Shown here: piece by piece, positions 2,699 to 31,526 of the stretch
Layout of the letters: each line of letters starts with the position of its first letter
Numbering within the stretch: position 1 is the first letter of the stretch
Assembly (NCBI GenBank): GCA_937902985.1
Contig: CALFNG010000208.1
Span: forward strand, 1 to 64,000
Origin: an uncultured Myxococcales bacterium
GTDB taxonomy: Bacteria > Myxococcota_A > Polyangia > Polyangiales > Polyangiaceae
Direction: 5' to 3'
DNA: 64,000 bases
Made by a program: the position numbers and the translations under genes
The notes under the pieces: model-generated
The model's input: the letters and a program-made list of their open reading frames with translations, nothing else
The model's database searches: none
What the model was told of the DNA's origin: nothing

Positions 2699-3691
2699 CT
2701 ATCGGGGCGTCGTCCACCTTGCCCGCCAACGAGTCGCGAGCGCGCGCAGCCGCTCCTTGTCCACGATCCCTTGCGGGAGAAAGAGCACGGCGACGATCAA
2801 GAGCCCCGAGTACGCCGCATACGAAAGAACGATTGGCGCGTAGCTGGGCATCCCGCCGAGCGTCGCCACCTGGTTGAGCGACTGAACGACGACAGTGACG
2901 AGCGCGGCGCCCACGAGCGCCCCTTCGATTGTCCCGAGCCCACCGACGACCGCCATCACGACGTACTCGAACGACAGCAAGACCGGGAAGGAACCCGGCG
3001 CGACGTAGCCGACGTAGAATGCGTAGATCCCACCGGCGAGCCCGGCGAATCCCGCGGCGAGCGCGAAGACGGCCAGCTTGTAGCGCCCCACGGGGACTCC
3101 CGACGACTCGGCTGCGACCTCGCTCGTCGCCAGCGCGCGCAGAGCTCGTCCCGGCCGAGAGGTCATCACGTTGTGCGTAATCAGCACGACCAGCGCCAAC
3201 GCCGCCCAGGCGAGATAGGCGTAGTTCCGGTCCGCGTGGAGCACGAACGGCCCGAGGGTCAGCGGCGGGATCCCTTGCAGTCCAATGTCCCCTCCGGTCA
3301 GGTGCATCCGTCCCACCATCGAAAGGTAGATGAGCTGGGTTGCCAGCGTCGCGAAGGCCAGGTGATGGCCGCGCAGCCGGAGGAGCGGGATGCCGACGAT
3401 CAACGCAAAAACGGCCGCCACGATCGGCGCGACCAGCAGGCCGATCCCGGTCGGAAAACCGTGTAGCGACAGCAGCGCGGCGGCGTTGGCGCCCGAGGCG
3501 TAGAAGGCCGCCTGGCCGAGCGAGACCTGCCCGGCGTATCCCATGAGCAGCGAGACGCCGACCGTGACGATCGCCGCGAGCTCCAGCAGGATGTAGACCG
3601 ACAGCGCGCTCTCGCGGAGCACGGCGGGCAAGACGAGCGTGACGACGGCGACGACGGCGACGACTCGATGCGTGCGGGGCGGGCGCTTCAC
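2699..3691 (-). CDS. livM: branched-chain amino-acid ABC transporter permease LivM
   Basis: A 330-residue permease, the last gene of the five-gene liv-type operon. It has the repeated helices of the family and the LivM signature around GYAGQVSLGQAAFYASGA, with the conserved segment VVGGLGTIEGALVGAA near the C-terminus. Together with LivH it forms the membrane channel for leucine/isoleucine/valine-type or other amide-like substrates. The start is a GTG at 3691 that overlaps the livH stop as GTGA, with GGAGGG just upstream; much longer open sequence precedes it but reads as the shadow of livH. Confidence 0.92.
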   Translation of the reverse strand: MKRPPRTHRVVAVVAVVTLVLPAVLRESALSVYILLELAAIVTVGVSLLMGYAGQVSLGQAAFYASGANAAALLSLHGFPTGIGLLVAPIVAAVFALIVGIPLLRLRGHHLAFATLATQLIYLSMVGRMHLTGGDIGLQGIPPLTLGPFVLHADRNYAYLAWAALALVVLITHNVMTSRPGRALRALATSEVAAESSGVPVGRYKLAVFALAAGFAGLAGGIYAFYVGYVAPGSFPVLLSFEYVVMAVVGGLGTIEGALVGAALVTVVVQSLNQVATLGGMPSYAPIVLSYAAYSGLLIVAVLFLPQGIVDKERLRALATRWRARWTTPR

Positions 3692-23541: not shown

Positions 23542-24220
23542 CGTTACTCTTGGCTACGCTCATTTGGCTTCCGAGGCCAGATCTTCGCGTGGCCGATCGC
23601 CTCGACGGATCAGGGCTGCCGTGGGCCTCGACCTCGCTCTCCACTGGTCCCCGCTGGTTTCCCCCTTGGCGAACATTTAGGCAGTCCGGCGGCGGCCCCT
23701 ATGAGCTCGCTTCCCGGCATCGCCGACGCCGGCGCGTTGCCGCTGGTCAGGCCTCGCTCGTCGAATTTCCCCATTCCTTGAAGAGCGCGGTGGGCGGCGC
23801 GGCGCCCGTCACACCGGCCACACTGGCCACACTGGCCACACTGGCCACACTGGCCACACTGGCCACACTGGCCACCAAGGGCGCCAACCGGTAATTCGCT
23901 ATGTGGTGACGGCCCGAGGGCCAGCGTCGAAATCGGGCGTCAAAAAGTTAAAGCCATCGTCGACGTGCCATCGAATTCCACCCGCCGTCGCGGAAAGTCG
24001 CTGTGCCGAGTTGCACGAGCCCGGTTCCACGTGGCCTACTGAATACATGGCTTCATCGCCTCGGCGGGTCCCCCCGAGGCGCCACTGAACTCGATGCAAG
24101 CGCTGCCCTCTCGAACCACCGAGTACGGAAGGAGACCGCACGCATGTCACGCGTGAAAACCTGTCTCGGTCCGGCCCTCATGCGAGCGCCTCGCGCGCAC
24201 CTTCGCCGAGGCGACCGGCC
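23542..24220. other. intergenic region, 9-base tandem repeat inside
   Basis: Nearly 680 bases with no recognised gene. A plus-strand frame (23550-23894) encodes ATLATLATL through the 9-base repeat at 23810-23872, but the rest is unlike a protein. The region holds the promoter of the OmpA gene at its left end. Confidence 0.45.
23810..23872. repeat. tandem array of seven 9-base units
   Basis: The unit CACACTGGC is repeated seven times without interruption; only the first copy differs, by one base (CACACCGGC). Read on the plus strand in one frame it encodes Thr-Leu-Ala repeats. The perfect conservation suggests recent expansion by slippage, so the copy number may vary among strains. Confidence 0.9.
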
Positions 24221-24797
24221 ATGGCCGACCGGTTCGCGGGGCGCACCCCCGCCCTCAGCGAGCTGGATCAGCTCTCCACGTGCGCGCGCGTCTTCAAGGA
24301 GGCCCTCCGCAAGTACCCGCCGATGCGCCTTCGGCCGCCAGGCGCTCACGAACGTCACCCTCGGTGGGCACGAGATCCCCGCCGGCACGGTCGTCCTGGT
24401 ATCGACATACGGCCTTCACCACAACCCGAGCGTCTACCCGGATCCGGAGCGCTTCGATCCCGATCGATTCGCACCCGAGGCCGAAGCCGCGCGGCACCGG
24501 TCGGCGTGGCTGCCCTTCGGCAACGGCCAGCGGGTCTGCATCGGGAATCACTTCGCGCTGCTCGAAGGGCAGATCGTGCTGGCGGCGCTCGCGCACCGCG
24601 TCGCGTTCGAGCCGAAGCCAGGCGCCGACGTGAAGCCCGCCCCGGCGGCCACGCTGCGCCCGAGCGGCGGGATGCCGATGATCGTGCGCCGGCGCGACCT
24701 TGCGCGAACCGGCGCACTCTCGAAGAGGGCGCGCAGGGTGAAGGCCCGTAGGGTGAGTGGCCCGTGGGGTCACGGCCCCGCCGTCACCGCGAGGTAG
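24221..24797 (+). pseudogene. cytochrome P450 C-terminal relic
   Basis: The K-helix motif ExxR is clear in FKEALRKYPPM in one frame, and the rest continues in the next frame as FGRQALTNVTLGG, PAGTVV, NPSVYPDPERFDPDRF and the haem loop FGNGQRVCIG with the cysteine near 24537. A single-base loss around 24325-24328 separates them. Everything N-terminal to the K helix (oxygen-binding I helix, about 270 residues) is missing. The tail runs into the convergent end of the TetR gene. It is a truncated, frameshifted P450 (CYP) gene and cannot encode an active enzyme. Confidence 0.8.
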
Positions 24798-25425
24798 CCG
24801 CCGCGCGACGCCGCGAGGGCGCGCGCGCAGCGGCGCCGGCGAGAACGAGATCGATGACAGCGTCGCAGAAGTCCTCGGTCGGTAGCTCTTCGCCGCTGAC
24901 GAGGCGCACGACCACGGGCGAGACCAGTACCTCGCTCAGAAAGAGGGGCGACGTGTGGGCCGGGAGCTCTCCCCGCGCCATGCCGCGCGCGATGACCGCG
25001 ACCCACTGGGACTCGAACTGGCGCCGCGACCCGCGCATGATGGCGCGCACTTCGGTGTTGCTCAGCTCCGACAACCAGGCGCGGGCGAGCGGCGTGCGCC
25101 CGTTCTCGACGAACGAACGCATCATGATCCGGAGATCGCTTCGCAACGAGCCGGTGTCGGGAGCGACCGTCCGGCGATCGCTCTCTCTTCGCATCGCCTC
25201 GCCCACGAGCTGCATCTTCGTGGGCCAGCGCCGATAAACCGTGGTCTTGTTGACGCCCGCGGCCTGCGCCACTTCTTCCATGCGGAGGGCGGCGTAGCCC
25301 ACGCGAGCGAGCTCCTCGGCGGTGGCGCGCAAGACGTCGGCGACGATGCGCGCGCTGCGCCCGCCAGCCCGGACCCCGCCGGGCACGGCGCGCAGCGCGC
25401 TCTTCCCCTTCGGCCGTGCCGCCAT
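24784..25425 (-). CDS. TetR-family transcriptional regulator
   Basis: A 213-residue repressor-type protein. The N-terminal helix-turn-helix (about residues 27-72) is canonical: LRATAEELARVGYAALRMEEVAQAAGV followed by TTVYRRWPTK. The C-terminal ligand/dimer domain has the TetR_C_11-like pattern with LSELSNTEVRAIM. It is divergent from the efflux genes starting at 25598, with 170 bases between them containing palindromic sites, and is the expected regulator of that operon and itself. The C-terminus overlaps the end of the P450 relic on the other strand by 14 bases. Confidence 0.9.
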   Translation of the reverse strand: MAARPKGKSALRAVPGGVRAGGRSARIVADVLRATAEELARVGYAALRMEEVAQAAGVNKTTVYRRWPTKMQLVGEAMRRESDRRTVAPDTGSLRSDLRIMMRSFVENGRTPLARAWLSELSNTEVRAIMRGSRRQFESQWVAVIARGMARGELPAHTSPLFLSEVLVSPVVVRLVSGEELPTEDFCDAVIDLVLAGAAARAPSRRRAAATSR

Positions 25426-25435
25426 TGACGTGCAG

Positions 25436-25597
25436 GTTGCAATACCCTCTCCGTTAATGCAACAAGTCGTTGCTATAAGCTCGACGTCTCACGGCGGCTC
25501 GCGCTTCAGCGCGCTCGCGAGAGGCTTCTTACCCAACAAATCCCGCAACGCACATGCCCGAAGGCTGCATCCAAGCCTGCAACCATAGGTTGCGATA
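25436..25597. promoter_or_regulatory. operator/promoter region between TetR and efflux genes
   Basis: Three copies of GTTGCNATA lie on the plus strand at 25436-25444, 25469-25477 and 25589-25597. The second is the right arm of the palindrome GCAAC-AAGTC-GTTGC (25459-25473), and the third of GCAACC-ATA-GGTTGC (25579-25593). The second copy also forms an extended -10 box (TGCTATAAG at 25472-25480) pointing toward the efflux genes. Repeated palindromic half-sites overlapping a promoter next to a divergent TetR gene are strong operator candidates. This is inferred from sequence alone. Confidence 0.6.
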
Positions 25598-26590
25598 GTG
25601 TCACCCGCGCACCAGCTCGACGCCAATGTCACCCTCACCGTGCCCATCATCAACGTCGCGAACTGGGACCGCCGCGATGTCGCCAAGGCCTCGCTCGCCG
25701 GTGCGCGAGCGAGCGAAGCCAACGCCGAGCTGACCGTACGGAAGAACGTCCTTCGCGACTACTACACCCTCCTCGGAGACGAGGCGGTGCTGCTGTCGGC
25801 AACCAAGAACGCCGAGGTCGCGCAGCACAACGTACAGCTCGCCCGCGATCGCAAGGAGAGCGGCACCGGCTCCGAGCTCGACGTGCAGCGCGCCCTGGCC
25901 GATCAGGCGAAGACTTCGCAGAGCGCGACCGCGGCGCAGCTGGCGGTCACGAACACCCGGCACGATCTCTACTCGCTGACGGGGCTCGTTGCCGAGCCGG
26001 CCGATGCCTTCCCCGAAGACGACCTCCACGACGAGCCGGCTCTCGACCACTGGACGGGCAAGGCCACCGACTTGCCCGCCGTGCAGAGCGCGACCGCCGG
26101 CCGCATCACGGCCGAGAAGAACGTGAAGGCGGCAGAGGGCGCGTGGTGGCCGAGCGTCGACGCGAAGGCCGAAGAGCGGTTCACCAACGCCACGGCCTTC
26201 ATCGGCGGGCACTCGGCGGTGTACCTGCTCCAGCTCCAAGCCACCTGGAAGATCGATATGACCATCAGCCCGCAGATCCGCGCGCAGAGCGCCGCCGCCG
26301 CCGCCGCGCGCGCCAACGAAGACCAGGTTCGGAAAGACGCGGAAGACGCCGTGTTTCGCGACTGGCAGCAGGTCCACGCGGACATCGAGTCGGCGCGCTC
26401 GGCGCGCGTGCAGGTGACGTCGACGCTGCTCGCCGCGTCGCTCGCGCAAGACCGGTACGAGAACGGGGTCGCCACCCAGCTCGACGTCTTGCAAGCCCGG
26501 CAAGAAGCCTTCTCGGCCGACGTATCCCGCATTCAGGCCGACGCCGACCTCGCTTATGCCCGCCTGGCCCTCCGGCTGGACTCCGGGCTT
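25598..26590 (+). pseudogene. TolC-like outer-membrane efflux gene, 5' truncated
   Basis: From GTG 25598 the frame reads LDANVTLTVPIINVANW and then typical OEP helices (NVLRDYYTLLGDEAVLL, ESGTGSELDVQRALADQ, RYENGVATQLDVLQARQEA) to YARLALRLDSG. This covers the barrel insertion of repeat one to the end of repeat two. The signal peptide and first roughly 100 residues are absent; a related piece, RGFLPNKSRNA, appears in another frame at about 25515-25560. At about 26590 the frame leaves TolC homology and joins AcrA-type sequence in a different frame. A functional outer-membrane channel is unlikely unless the sequence is misassembled. Confidence 0.7.
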
Positions 26591-27182
26591 CTCGCGCGCC
26601 GCCGCGGCCGTGCAGACGGTCTCCGACTCGTCGATCCGCGCCCCGTTCGGAGGCGTCGTCGCCGAGCGCTTCGTCCACGTCGGCGACTACGTGCACGCCG
26701 ACACGCGCGTCGTCACCCTGCTCGTCGACGATCCCCTGCGCCTCGAGCTGACCGTGCCCGAGGCCAACGTGGGCAGCGTGCGCCCCGGGCTCGCCGTCTC
26801 GTTCCAGAGCGTCGCCGTACCGGGCCGCGTCTTCACCGCCGCTGTCAAGTACATGGGCGGGGAGATCCGATCCGCCACGCGCGACCTGGTGGTCGAGGCC
26901 GTGACCGACAACGGGGACCACGCCCTCTTGCCGGGCATGTTCGTGACCGCGCAGCTCCCTGTGGGCGAGGTGACCTTGCCCGTCGTGCCCCAGAAGGCCG
27001 TCGTCGATCGCGACGGCAACGACACGCTCTTCACGGTCGTCGACGGTCGCCTCGAGATGCGCGTCGTTCAGCTCGGCCCCAAGGTGGGCGACCTCGTGGC
27101 CATTGCCGACGGCGTGAAGAAGGGGGACCAGGTCGTGGTCTCGCCCCCGCAAGGCGCGGTCGACGGCGCGCTGGTCGAGTAG
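26589..27182 (+). pseudogene. AcrA-type membrane fusion protein, N-terminal half missing
   Basis: The frame resembles the second half of RND periplasmic adaptor proteins: it begins at the end of the hairpin (SRAAAAVQTVSDSSIRAPFGG), then VAERFVHVGDYVHADTRVVTL, the beta-barrel with VRPGLAVSFQSV and the membrane-proximal domain VVPQKAVVDRDGNDTLFTV, ending GDQVVVSPPQG. The signal/lipid anchor, first lipoyl half and most of the coiled coil are gone. The homology starts exactly where the TolC-like frame ends, pointing to a deletion that fused the two. The pump gene follows after 27 bases. Confidence 0.72.
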
Positions 27183-27209
27183 AGCGGAAGAGGAGAGGGG
27201 CTAAGGATC

Positions 27210-30200
27210 ATGCAATGGCTCGCGTCGCTGTGCATCCGGCAGCCGGTGTTCACCTGGGTGCTGATGCTCGTGTTCGTCGTCATCGGCGCCTTCGGCTATT
27301 TCTCGCTCGGCGTCGATCAGTTCCCGAAGATCGACTTCCCCGCCATCATCGTCACCACGACCGAGAACGGCGCCGCCCCCGAAGAGATCGAGACCGAGCT
27401 GACCGACAAGGTCGAGGGGGCGGTCAACACGATCAGCGGCATCGATGAGCTGCGGTCCACGTCGAGCCAGGGCATCTCGCTGGTCATCATCAGCTTCAAC
27501 CTCGACAAGAACCCCGACGTCGCGGCGCAGGAGGTGCGCGACCACATCAACAACGTCCTCCCCCGAGCTGCCCAAGGGCATCGACCCGCCCATCGTCTCG
27601 AAGATCGACCCTGACGCGTCGCCGATCCTCTACGTCACGCTGAGCAGCCCCGGGTCGATCCGCGACACCACCGAGCTCGCCGACAAGCGGGTGCGCCGCC
27701 AGATCGAGAGCATCAACGGCGTCGGGCAGGTGAACATCCTCGGCGGCAAGAAGCGGCAGGTCAACGTCTGGCTCGATCCGCTCCAGCTCCAGGCCGCCGG
27801 TCTCACCGCCGTCGACGTCGAGCGCGCGCTCGCGCAGCAGAACCTGAGCGTCCCGGGCGGCCAGATCGAGACCGGGCCCAAGAGCCTCTCTCTCCGCGTC
27901 GAGGGGCGCGTCGACGACGTGGCCAAGATCGGTCGCATCGTCATCAAAGACAGCCAGGATCACCCGACGCGCATCGGCGACGTGGCCCGCGTCGAAGACG
28001 GGGTCGAAGAGCCCAAGACGTCGGCCGTCGAAGACGGCAAAGAGAGCGTCGTGCTCTCGGTCCGCAAGCAGTCGGGCGAGAACACCGTCGCGGTCGTCGA
28101 CGCGGTCAAGGCGCGACTCGGCGAGGTGGAGAAGACGCTCCCCCAGGGCTCCGAGCTGAGGGTCGTGCGCGACGAGTCGGCGTCGATCAGGACGAGCGTG
28201 AACGCGGTCAAGGAGCACCTCGTTCTCGGCGCCGTCTTCGCCGCCGTCATCGTGCTCCTCTTCCTGGGCAACGCGCGGAGCACGCTCATCGCCGCGCTGG
28301 CGATTCCCGTCTCCATCATCGGCACCTTCGGATTGATGTGGGCGATGGGCTTCACGCTCAACATCATCACCTTGCTGGCCCTCGCGCTGGCGGTGGGCAT
28401 CGTCATCGACGACGCCATCGTGGTGCTCGAGAACATCGTCCGCTTCATCGAAGAGAAGAAGAAGAAGCCCTTCGTCGCGGCGACGCTCGCGACGCGCGAC
28501 ATCGGCCTCGCCGTCCTCGCGACCACGCTCTCGCTCATGGCCGTGTTCCTCCCCGTGGCCTTCATGAGCGGCATCATCGGGCGGTTCTTGAAGAGCTTCG
28601 GCCTGACAATGGCGTTCGCCATTCTCGTGTCGCTCATCGTCAGCTTCTCGTTGACGCCGATGCTCGCGGCCCGCTGGCTCAACGGCCCTCCGGCCGAGGG
28701 CGTGTCGACCGAGAAGTCATTTCTCGAGAGGTTCGTCGATCGCTTCTACCGGCCCATCGAGTCGTTCTACATGCTCGTCCTCACCTGGGTGATGGGCCGC
28801 CGCTGGGTCGTGGTGGTCGTGGCGTGCGGCGCGCTGGGGTCGTGCTTCCCGCTCGCGAACGCCGTGCCCAAGGGTTCACCCCGCCGAACGATGTCGCCGA
28901 GTTCGACGTGAACGTCCGCGCGCCGGAGGGCACGAGCCTCGCCGAGACGCGCCTCCAGGCCGAGCGCGTCGCGCGCGAGATCCGCGCCATTCCCGGGGTC
29001 AACCACACCCTCCTCACGATCGGCAACGACTCGTCGGTGACCCGGAACCTCGCGAACGTCTTCGTGCACCTGGTCGACCCTCGCTCGCGGAAGGAAGACC
29101 AGTTCGCGATCATGGACCGGGTCCGCAAAGAGGTCGTGCCCCGTCAGCCGGCGAACCTGCGCATCGACGTGTCGCAGACGGCGCAGATCTCGAGCGGGCA
29201 GTCGCAGGCGCAGGTGCAGTACACGCTGAACGGCCCGGATCTGAACCAGCTCGCGCGCTATACGAGCGCCATCCTCGAGCGGTTCCGCAGGGCCAGGGGA
29301 GCGGTCGACGTCGACTCGAACCTCGTCGTCGGCAACCCCGAGGTGCACGTGGAGATCGACCGCGACCTCGCCGGCAACCTCGGGGTGGACGTGGCCGACG
29401 TGGCCAACGCCCTCGAACTCCTCGTCGGCGGCCTCAAGGTGTCGACGTACGAAGAGGCGGGCAACGACTACGACGTCCGCGCCCGCGCCGACGCCGCGTA
29501 CCGCGCCGATCTCTCGGGCATCTCCGCGATGACGGTGCAGACGAAGACGGGAAAGTCCGTGCCGCTGTCGTCGGTGGTGAAGCTGGTTCCGACCACGGGC
29601 CCCTCGCAGATCAATCGCCTGGCCCGGCAGCGTCAGGTCACGATCACGGCAAACGTGGCTCCCGGCGTCGGCCAGAGCGAGGTCTCGGACGCGCTGGTCC
29701 GGATCATCAAGGACCAGCACTTGCCGCCCGAGTACCACGCGGTTCCCGCAGGCATCACCAAGGAGACCGGGCGCGCCGTCAAGGGGTTCGCCGTGGCCGT
29801 CGGGCTCTCGTTCATCTTCATGTACCTCGTTCTCGCGGCCCAGTTCGGGTCGTGGCTGCACCCGATCACGATCATGCTGTCGCTCCCGCTGACGGTCCCC
29901 TTCGCCTTGCTCTCGCTGCTGCTCTTTCACCAGGAGCTGTCGCTCCTGTCGATGCTGGGGATCATCGTTCTCTTCGGCGTCGTGAAGAAGAACGCGATCC
30001 TCCAGGTGGACCACACGAATCACCTCCGCGCCGAGGGCAGGCCGCGGCTCGACGCCATCCTCGAGGCGAATCGCGACCGCCTCCGGCCCATCCTCATGAC
30101 GACGCTTGCGTTCGTGGCCGGGATGATCCCGCTCATCACGTCGCGCGGGATCGGCGCCGGATTGAACCGCGCGACCGCCGGAGTCGTCGTCGGCGGGCAG

Positions 30201-30419
30201 ACGCTCTCGCTCGCCCTGACGCTCCTCGTCACGCCCGTGGCGTATTCCCTCTTCGACGACCTGACCGGGTGGCTGGGCAGGCGCTTCGGCTCCAGCGACC
30301 GCGTCGACCGAGGAGAGAAGGACCTCGACGCGCTCTCCCGCGGGCGCCACGAGGCTCCGGCTACCCCGTATCGCTCGAAGGCGCTCGGCGCCGCCTGCCG
30401 TCCGGCCCCGGCCGATTGA
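27210..30419 (+). pseudogene. RND multidrug efflux pump gene with two frameshifts
   Basis: An AcrB/HAE1-type proton antiporter gene, about 1,070 codons, with TAAGGATC just before the ATG. Three frames carry it: residues from MQWLASLCIRQPVFTW to about 27560, then to about 28872, then to the stop. The first break is at C5 (27560-27564); one C fewer restores VLPELPKG. The second is at GGG (28872-28874); one G more restores VPKGFTPPND. Membrane segments and the two porter halves are otherwise complete, including the RND motif GIVIDDAIVVLENIVR. Both indels are on homopolymers, so a read error is possible; if real, the pump is dead. Confidence 0.8.
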
Positions 30420-30452: not shown

Positions 30453-31526
30453 ATGACCGATTCGTCGCCGCTGCTCGCCATGCTCGAGGTCGACCGGCCG
30501 ATCGTGCAGGCGCCGATGGCCGGCGTGTCGACGCCCGCCATGGCGGCCGCCGTCTCGAACGCCGGAGCCCTGGGCTCGATCGGGGTCGGCGCGACCAACG
30601 CCGCGGGCGCGCTCGAGATGATCAAGGCCGTGCGTGAGCGCTCGCGACGCTCGCTCAACGTGAACGTCTTCTGCCACCGACCGGCCAAGGCCGACGCCGC
30701 CGTCGAGGCGGCGTGGGTGGAGCGCCTGCGGCCCGAGTTCGCGCGGTTCGGCGTCGAGCCACCGCGTCGCCTGGCGGAGATCTACAAGAGCTTCGTCGAA
30801 GACGACGACATGCTCGCGATGCTCGTGGCCGAGAGGCCGAAGGTCGTCAGCTTGCACTTCGGGGTGCCGGCCCCGGAGCGCATCCAGGCTCTTCGACAGG
30901 CCGGCATCGTTCTCCTCGGCTCGGCGACGAACGTCCTCGAAGGGCAGCTCCTCGAGGCCGCAGGCGTTCAGGCCGTGGTCGCGCAAGGCTTCGAGGCCGG
31001 CGGCCATCGCGGGGTCTTCGACCCCGGGGCGCCCGACGATCGCCTCGGCACAATGGCGCTCACGCGGCTGCTCGTGCGGGCGCTCGGTGTTCCCGTGATC
31101 GCGGCCGGCGGGATCATGGACGGCGCGGGCATCGCTGCCGCCTTGCGGCTCGGCGCGAGCGCCGCGCAGCTCGGCACGGCCTTCGTGGCCTGCGCCGAGT
31201 CGCTCGCCGACGCCGGCTACCGGGCTTCTCTGATGAGCGAGGCCGCGAGCCACACCGTGATGACGCGGGCCATCTCGGGACGCCCGGCGCGGTGCCTGGC
31301 GAATCGGTTCACCGCGCTGGGCGCCCGCATTTCACCCGCGGACATCCCGGCCTACCCAATCGCCTACGACGCCGGAAAGGCGCTTAACGCTGCCGGCAAG
31401 TCGGCGGGCGAGGCCGGGTTCGGCGCCCAGTGGGCGGGTCAGGGCGCGCCGCTCGCTCGCGCGATGCCCGCGGGCGAGCTCGTGGCAAAGCTCGCGGCCG
31501 AGATGGCCGAGGCGACGACGGTGTGA
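30453..31526 (+). CDS. nitronate monooxygenase / 2-nitropropane dioxygenase family
   Basis: A 357-residue FMN-dependent TIM-barrel oxidoreductase. It opens PIVQAPMAGVSTPAMAAAVS and carries GFEAGGHRGVFD with the conserved His of class I enzymes, the phosphate-binding VIAAGGIMDGAGIAAALRLGA and GTAFVACAES. Family members oxidise propionate-3-nitronate or other alkyl nitronates, detoxifying them; some are of unknown substrate. It begins 33 bases after the efflux pump stop and could be read from the same transcript. Confidence 0.88.
   Translation: MTDSSPLLAMLEVDRPIVQAPMAGVSTPAMAAAVSNAGALGSIGVGATNAAGALEMIKAVRERSRRSLNVNVFCHRPAKADAAVEAAWVERLRPEFARFGVEPPRRLAEIYKSFVEDDDMLAMLVAERPKVVSLHFGVPAPERIQALRQAGIVLLGSATNVLEGQLLEAAGVQAVVAQGFEAGGHRGVFDPGAPDDRLGTMALTRLLVRALGVPVIAAGGIMDGAGIAAALRLGASAAQLGTAFVACAESLADAGYRASLMSEAASHTVMTRAISGRPARCLANRFTALGARISPADIPAYPIAYDAGKALNAAGKSAGEAGFGAQWAGQGAPLARAMPAGELVAKLAAEMAEATTV

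Follow-up and report, generated by a model that had tools for sequence, protein, structure and literature searches.

The window analysed here is a 64,000-base stretch of DNA, bases 1-64000 of the 66,338-base contig C208, which belongs to a metagenome-assembled genome (MAG) of 563 contigs and 8.3 Mb with a contamination estimate of 3.37%. The window contains no N. Its region of interest carries the following features:

24221..24751, + strand: cytochrome P450 remnant, comprising a K-helix piece and the C-terminal ~121 residues (Pfam p450; two-frame match)
about 24239-24322 and 24333-24698, + strand: the K-helix piece and the C-terminal part of the P450, respectively, in different frames
24784..25425, - strand: apparently intact gene for a 213-aa TetR-family repressor, oriented divergently from the operon (Pfam TetR_N, TetR_C_11)
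25459..25473, + strand: likely TetR operator 1, GCAAC-N5-GTTGC (exact motif match)
25579..25593, + strand: likely TetR operator 2, GCAAC-N5-GTTGC (exact motif match)
25594..25606, + strand: deletion junction 1, at the TolC 5' end (tblastn start at TolC residue 145 of the reference operon L029; BLASTN start at 25611)
25598..26587, + strand: TolC-family outer membrane factor fragment (Pfam OEP; 60% identity to L029 TolC)
26588..26592, + strand: deletion junction 2, joining TolC out of frame to the adaptor (homology to L029 and other relatives)
26592..27182, + strand: RND periplasmic adaptor fragment, C-terminal part (TIGR01730; Pfam HlyD_D23; tblastn against L029)
27210..30419, + strand: RND permease (HAE-1 type), in three frames (ACR_tran pieces; three-frame match to L029)

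A 9-base unit, CACACTGGC, is repeated in tandem in 7.3 copies at 23810-23875, just upstream of the P450 remnant, and an open nitronate monooxygenase/FabK-like gene (30453-31526) lies directly 3' of the broken pump.

The locus is an ordinary TetR-controlled RND multidrug efflux operon, with a TolC-like outer membrane factor, an AcrA-like adaptor and an AcrB-like permease. The outer membrane factor matched PF02321 (6.2e-32), and the TIGR01844 cut-off was reached neither by the TolC fragment nor by the intact L029 TolC. The adaptor scored 140 bits against the RND_mfp model TIGR01730 (cut-off 94.9), the match covering only positions 124-319 of 322; its nearest named relatives are Myxococcales, Polyangiaceae or Labilithrix metagenome assemblies, at 46-50% identity, so that the DNA probably comes from an uncultured polyangial myxobacterium. 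Three ACR_tran pieces (profile positions 2-116, 113-550 and 550-1020) jointly span positions 2-1020 of the profile, and the permease start, its stop and the transmembrane DD motif (GIVIDDAIV) are present. Complete, exported and in-frame products are nevertheless not encoded: the 5' ends of TolC and adaptor are absent and the pump is spread over three frames.

As the intact reference we used L029 (contig C952 of genome G003), the nearest operon to come out of a search of 38 genomes. At the DNA level the window and L029 are 76% identical across adaptor and pump and 69% identical in TolC. The L029 TolC (a 487-residue ORF) and adaptor (365 residues) are whole, as is its permease except where the contig ends. 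The whole operon set is also found in G022, a single-contig genome, and the G003 and G022 operons likely show the ancestral state. A search of plasmids returned nothing but distant pumps.

By tblastn of the L029 proteins against the window, the region 25598-26587 (frame +2) corresponds to TolC residues 145-473 of 487 at 60% identity, and 26592-27179 (frame +3) to residues 163-358 of the 365-residue adaptor at 56%. Absent relative to L029 are therefore TolC residues 1-144, the last 14 TolC residues (474-487) and adaptor residues 1-162. At junction 2 the window has about 4 bases (26588-26591) in place of about 527 bases of L029 (4248-4774). The adaptor homology of several other relatives begins at 26593, which places the join to within a few bases. 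These results bear out an earlier note on this DNA, which had the TolC frame entering AcrA-type sequence at about 26590, out of frame, and had put the missing stretch at 400-700 bases; against the intact L029, the loss comes to about 0.52 kb. The reading frame changes between the two fragments, so the open frame 25598-27448 runs through about 330 codons of TolC and then through adaptor DNA out of frame. Automated annotation would report a "TolC-fusion" of 616 residues and a shortened adaptor at this locus, but neither reflects a genuine protein architecture. That TolC and adaptor are truly fused into one protein was rejected, given the out-of-frame join and the separate genes of the relatives.

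The 5' end of TolC is the site of a second lesion. The TolC similarity begins directly after the GCAAC-N5-GTTGC motif at 25579-25593, indicating that the first deletion ends just past operator 2, and at junction 1 the start of TolC is short of about 300 bases (L029 2958-3260). If the ATG at L029:2940 is taken as the TolC start, about 107 residues are missing, in good agreement with the signal and roughly 100 first residues reported as lost before. The earlier note had described the genes as fused by an apparent deletion. This deletion fusion is upheld by comparison with the G003 and G022 operons, but the TolC truncation is a separate lesion of about 0.3 kb. Since both proteins have lost their N-terminal export region along with their first part, it can be soundly inferred that neither fragment would yield a functional product, as had been proposed.

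The pump matches L029 in three frames, at 27210-27587 (+3), 27559-28872 (+1) and 28869-29828 (+3), where the L029 sequence stops, and its frame breaks thus lie near 27.56 and 28.87 kb. Both of the pump frameshifts described earlier are confirmed by comparison with the intact G003 and G022 operons. The P450 neighbor is damaged as well: the Pfam p450 match is confined to profile positions 343-447 of 462, about 300 N-terminal residues are missing relative to full-length relatives, and a frame break lies near 24.33 kb (coding-frame model call at 24330; two-frame match to relatives). With the P450 included, the lesions cluster at about 24.2-28.9 kb and reach beyond the part of the window with which the earlier note was concerned.

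The TetR repressor gene and both candidate operator copies look intact. GCAAC-N5-GTTGC has two exact matches in the 64 kb, where 0.09 are expected, and both fall between TetR and TolC. The window TetR shares 38-41% identity with the TetRs encoded next to related operons (L029, L030, L032 and L033), and the motif adjoins the TetR genes of L029 (positions 1259, 2096, 2776 and 2943), L030 (6496 and 6539) and L032 (6931); the L029 copy at 2943-2957 falls at the likely TolC start codon. This recurrence suggests that GCAAC-N5-GTTGC is likely a shared operator of this TetR group.

To describe how the frame breaks are distributed we used a coding-frame model, after removing segments shorter than 90 bases as well as short ones lying at the ends of contigs. 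Some of what the model flags is false, several of its calls in genome G001 adjoin N, and the sequences L046 and L140 consist entirely of N; it was therefore used for clustering only. All three "hard" breaks in the window lie at 24.3-27.6 kb, with no hard calls in the remainder of the 64 kb; at 28.87 kb the model called a shift without classing it as hard, and homology confirms the break there. In a 4.65-kb region, 0.15 hard breaks would be expected against the three seen (P about 5e-4, for a region picked after seeing the data). The expectation is based on other contigs of the window genome, where 23 calls fall within 720 kb of coding sequence: 13 in 420 kb, and 10 in 300 kb on 40 more contigs, 6 of which had been picked for matching the C208 ends, with 5 of the 10 calls on C422. 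Hard breaks in other genomes numbered 3 in 102 kb (G002), 5 in 114 kb (G001) and 2 in 156 kb (G021/G022). The genome-wide rate of about 3.2 per 100 kb coding is not significantly different from the 1.3 of G021/G022 (P 0.30), although the assembly may be mildly error-prone.

We favor recent pseudogenization of the efflux operon and its P450 neighbor over local misassembly, and consider it the probable explanation. The earlier note had left decay and misassembly side by side; the balance now tilts toward decay, and the undisturbed constraint on the fragments keeps the choice from being settled. Decay is favored by the focal lesions, the k=55 assembly signs discussed below, the lack of long repeats at the joins, the broken P450 neighbor and the split or fragmentary genes found in other parts of this genome (described at the end). 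Intact homologs exist in G003 and G022, and the lesions are several and independent: two deletions in the operon, two pump breaks, and the truncation and break of the P450. The comparison shows two deletions of about 0.3 and 0.52 kb, measured against the intact relative, which removed the front of TolC and fused its end out of frame to the last half of the adaptor; two small frame changes split the permease, and the P450 is truncated and frame-broken as well. In the favored scenario no functional pump would be made, and the repressor and operators would survive because too little time has elapsed. The loss might be tolerated through at least one related intact operon, on contig C467, whose adaptor and permease frames are open.

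Apart from the break rate given above, two results count against decay. The first concerns selection. Using nine outgroup loci (one for TolC), we found that window-unique changes are not systematically above G003-unique changes, either in amino acids or at codon positions 1 and 2, so relaxed selection was not detected in the fragments. The absence of excess amino-acid change means that the lesions are either recent or artifactual; six lesions with no measurable rise in such change must, if real, be very recent events, and long-standing decay was rejected for want of excess substitutions. Second, the junction is seen in one assembly, and among the matches listed it occurs in no other of the 183 genomes examined in the order, leaving it without independent replication.

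The same two results fit a local misassembly: the cell would carry an undamaged operon, and pieces would have been lost and frame breaks introduced either through low coverage or when the assembler closed gaps between the tips of contigs. The mixed nature of the lesions within one focal cluster and the fragmentation of the MAG also speak for it, as does a 9-base repeat, CGACTCCGC, which in L029 lies close to each end of the missing stretch. De Bruijn assembly at a largest k of 55 makes wrong joins at shared 55-mers, and when SPAdes-type assemblers close gaps between the tips of contigs, short overlaps might in principle lead to a loss of sequence. Tip joining poorly explains small frame breaks outside repeats, however. 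Among 135 contig ends of the assembly, four pairs overlap by exactly 55 bases, the largest overlap seen, and PMC9784204 gives 55 as the largest default k of metaSPAdes, which points to a short-read assembly with k=55. With end overlaps matching that k, a join that has no shared 55-mer is not a simple graph collapse. At junction 2, exact direct repeats in L029 reach 9 bases at most, and none of at least 8 bases spans junction 1. Simple repeat collapse was accordingly rejected, with L029 standing in for the window species' own intact sequence: no repeat of at least k lies at the joins in L029, and the missing sequence was not found elsewhere in the assembly. For the missing TolC front end, the window's own genome gave no match at E<=0.001 (a search with no positive control in that genome); for the missing adaptor front end, the best match was a 41-42% paralog on C467, with none closer. 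That the missing pieces are located elsewhere in the same assembly was rejected on these grounds. Together with the short-read assembly signs, the lack of N and the freedom of the remaining window from hard breaks, these observations make a local misassembly an unlikely account, although one to be taken seriously.

Two readings at the level of strains have only a slim chance each. In the first, intact and deleted operons would coexist in the population and the assembler would have kept the deleted path; the contamination estimate of the MAG and the very recent look of the lesions agree with this, but the assembly yielded no other copy of what is missing. In the second, which we rate just as low, the lesions would be real and confined to some strains, intact and broken pumps standing side by side after a recent and possibly selected loss of efflux that kept the repressor and operators. 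That the truncated genes work in a new form, for instance as a short TolC or a frameshift-decoded pump, is barely conceivable: the fragments show no relaxed constraint, but the TolC and adaptor front ends are missing, the join is out of frame and the junction is not seen in relatives.

Set against known systems, the locus shares its gene row, with TetR and likely operators adjoining, with HAE-1 RND tripartite operons with a divergent TetR, of the AcrAB-TolC, MexAB-OprM and MtrCDE kind, from which it differs in having TolC and adaptor truncated and fused out of frame and the permease in three frames. MacAB is an ABC-type pump. A change at macAB in Salmonella is likewise a lineage-specific change in a tripartite efflux locus, although the pump type differs. 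African Salmonella carries macAB gene variants, for which isolates and experiments exist (PMC7446830). In Neisseria, loss-of-function mtrCDE and farAB alleles occur across isolates with a susceptibility phenotype (PMC7431566); that is likewise a natural inactivation of efflux, whereas the evidence here is the sequence of one metagenome assembly. With natural loss of efflux operons already known, as for mtrCDE and farAB, the locus adds nothing unusual biologically. If confirmed, the recent pseudogenization that we favor would add a further case to the natural losses of RND efflux pumps, seen at a stage early enough for the repressor, the operators and the constrained pump residues to be still intact. 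We found no paper on pseudogenes in Polyangia metagenome-assembled genomes.

Other genes of the same genome are also split in two frames, namely those for a KdpD-like kinase (L130, about 19623, in the phospho-acceptor region), an arylsulfotransferase (L120, about 2217) and a Band_7 protein (L056, about 9280). In L199, which represents contig C422, short gene fragments in changing frames occupy about 2.6-8.8 kb; names such as integrase-like and IlvA-like were given to them by eye. A run of 28 bases there (3284-3311) also forms the right end of C208.
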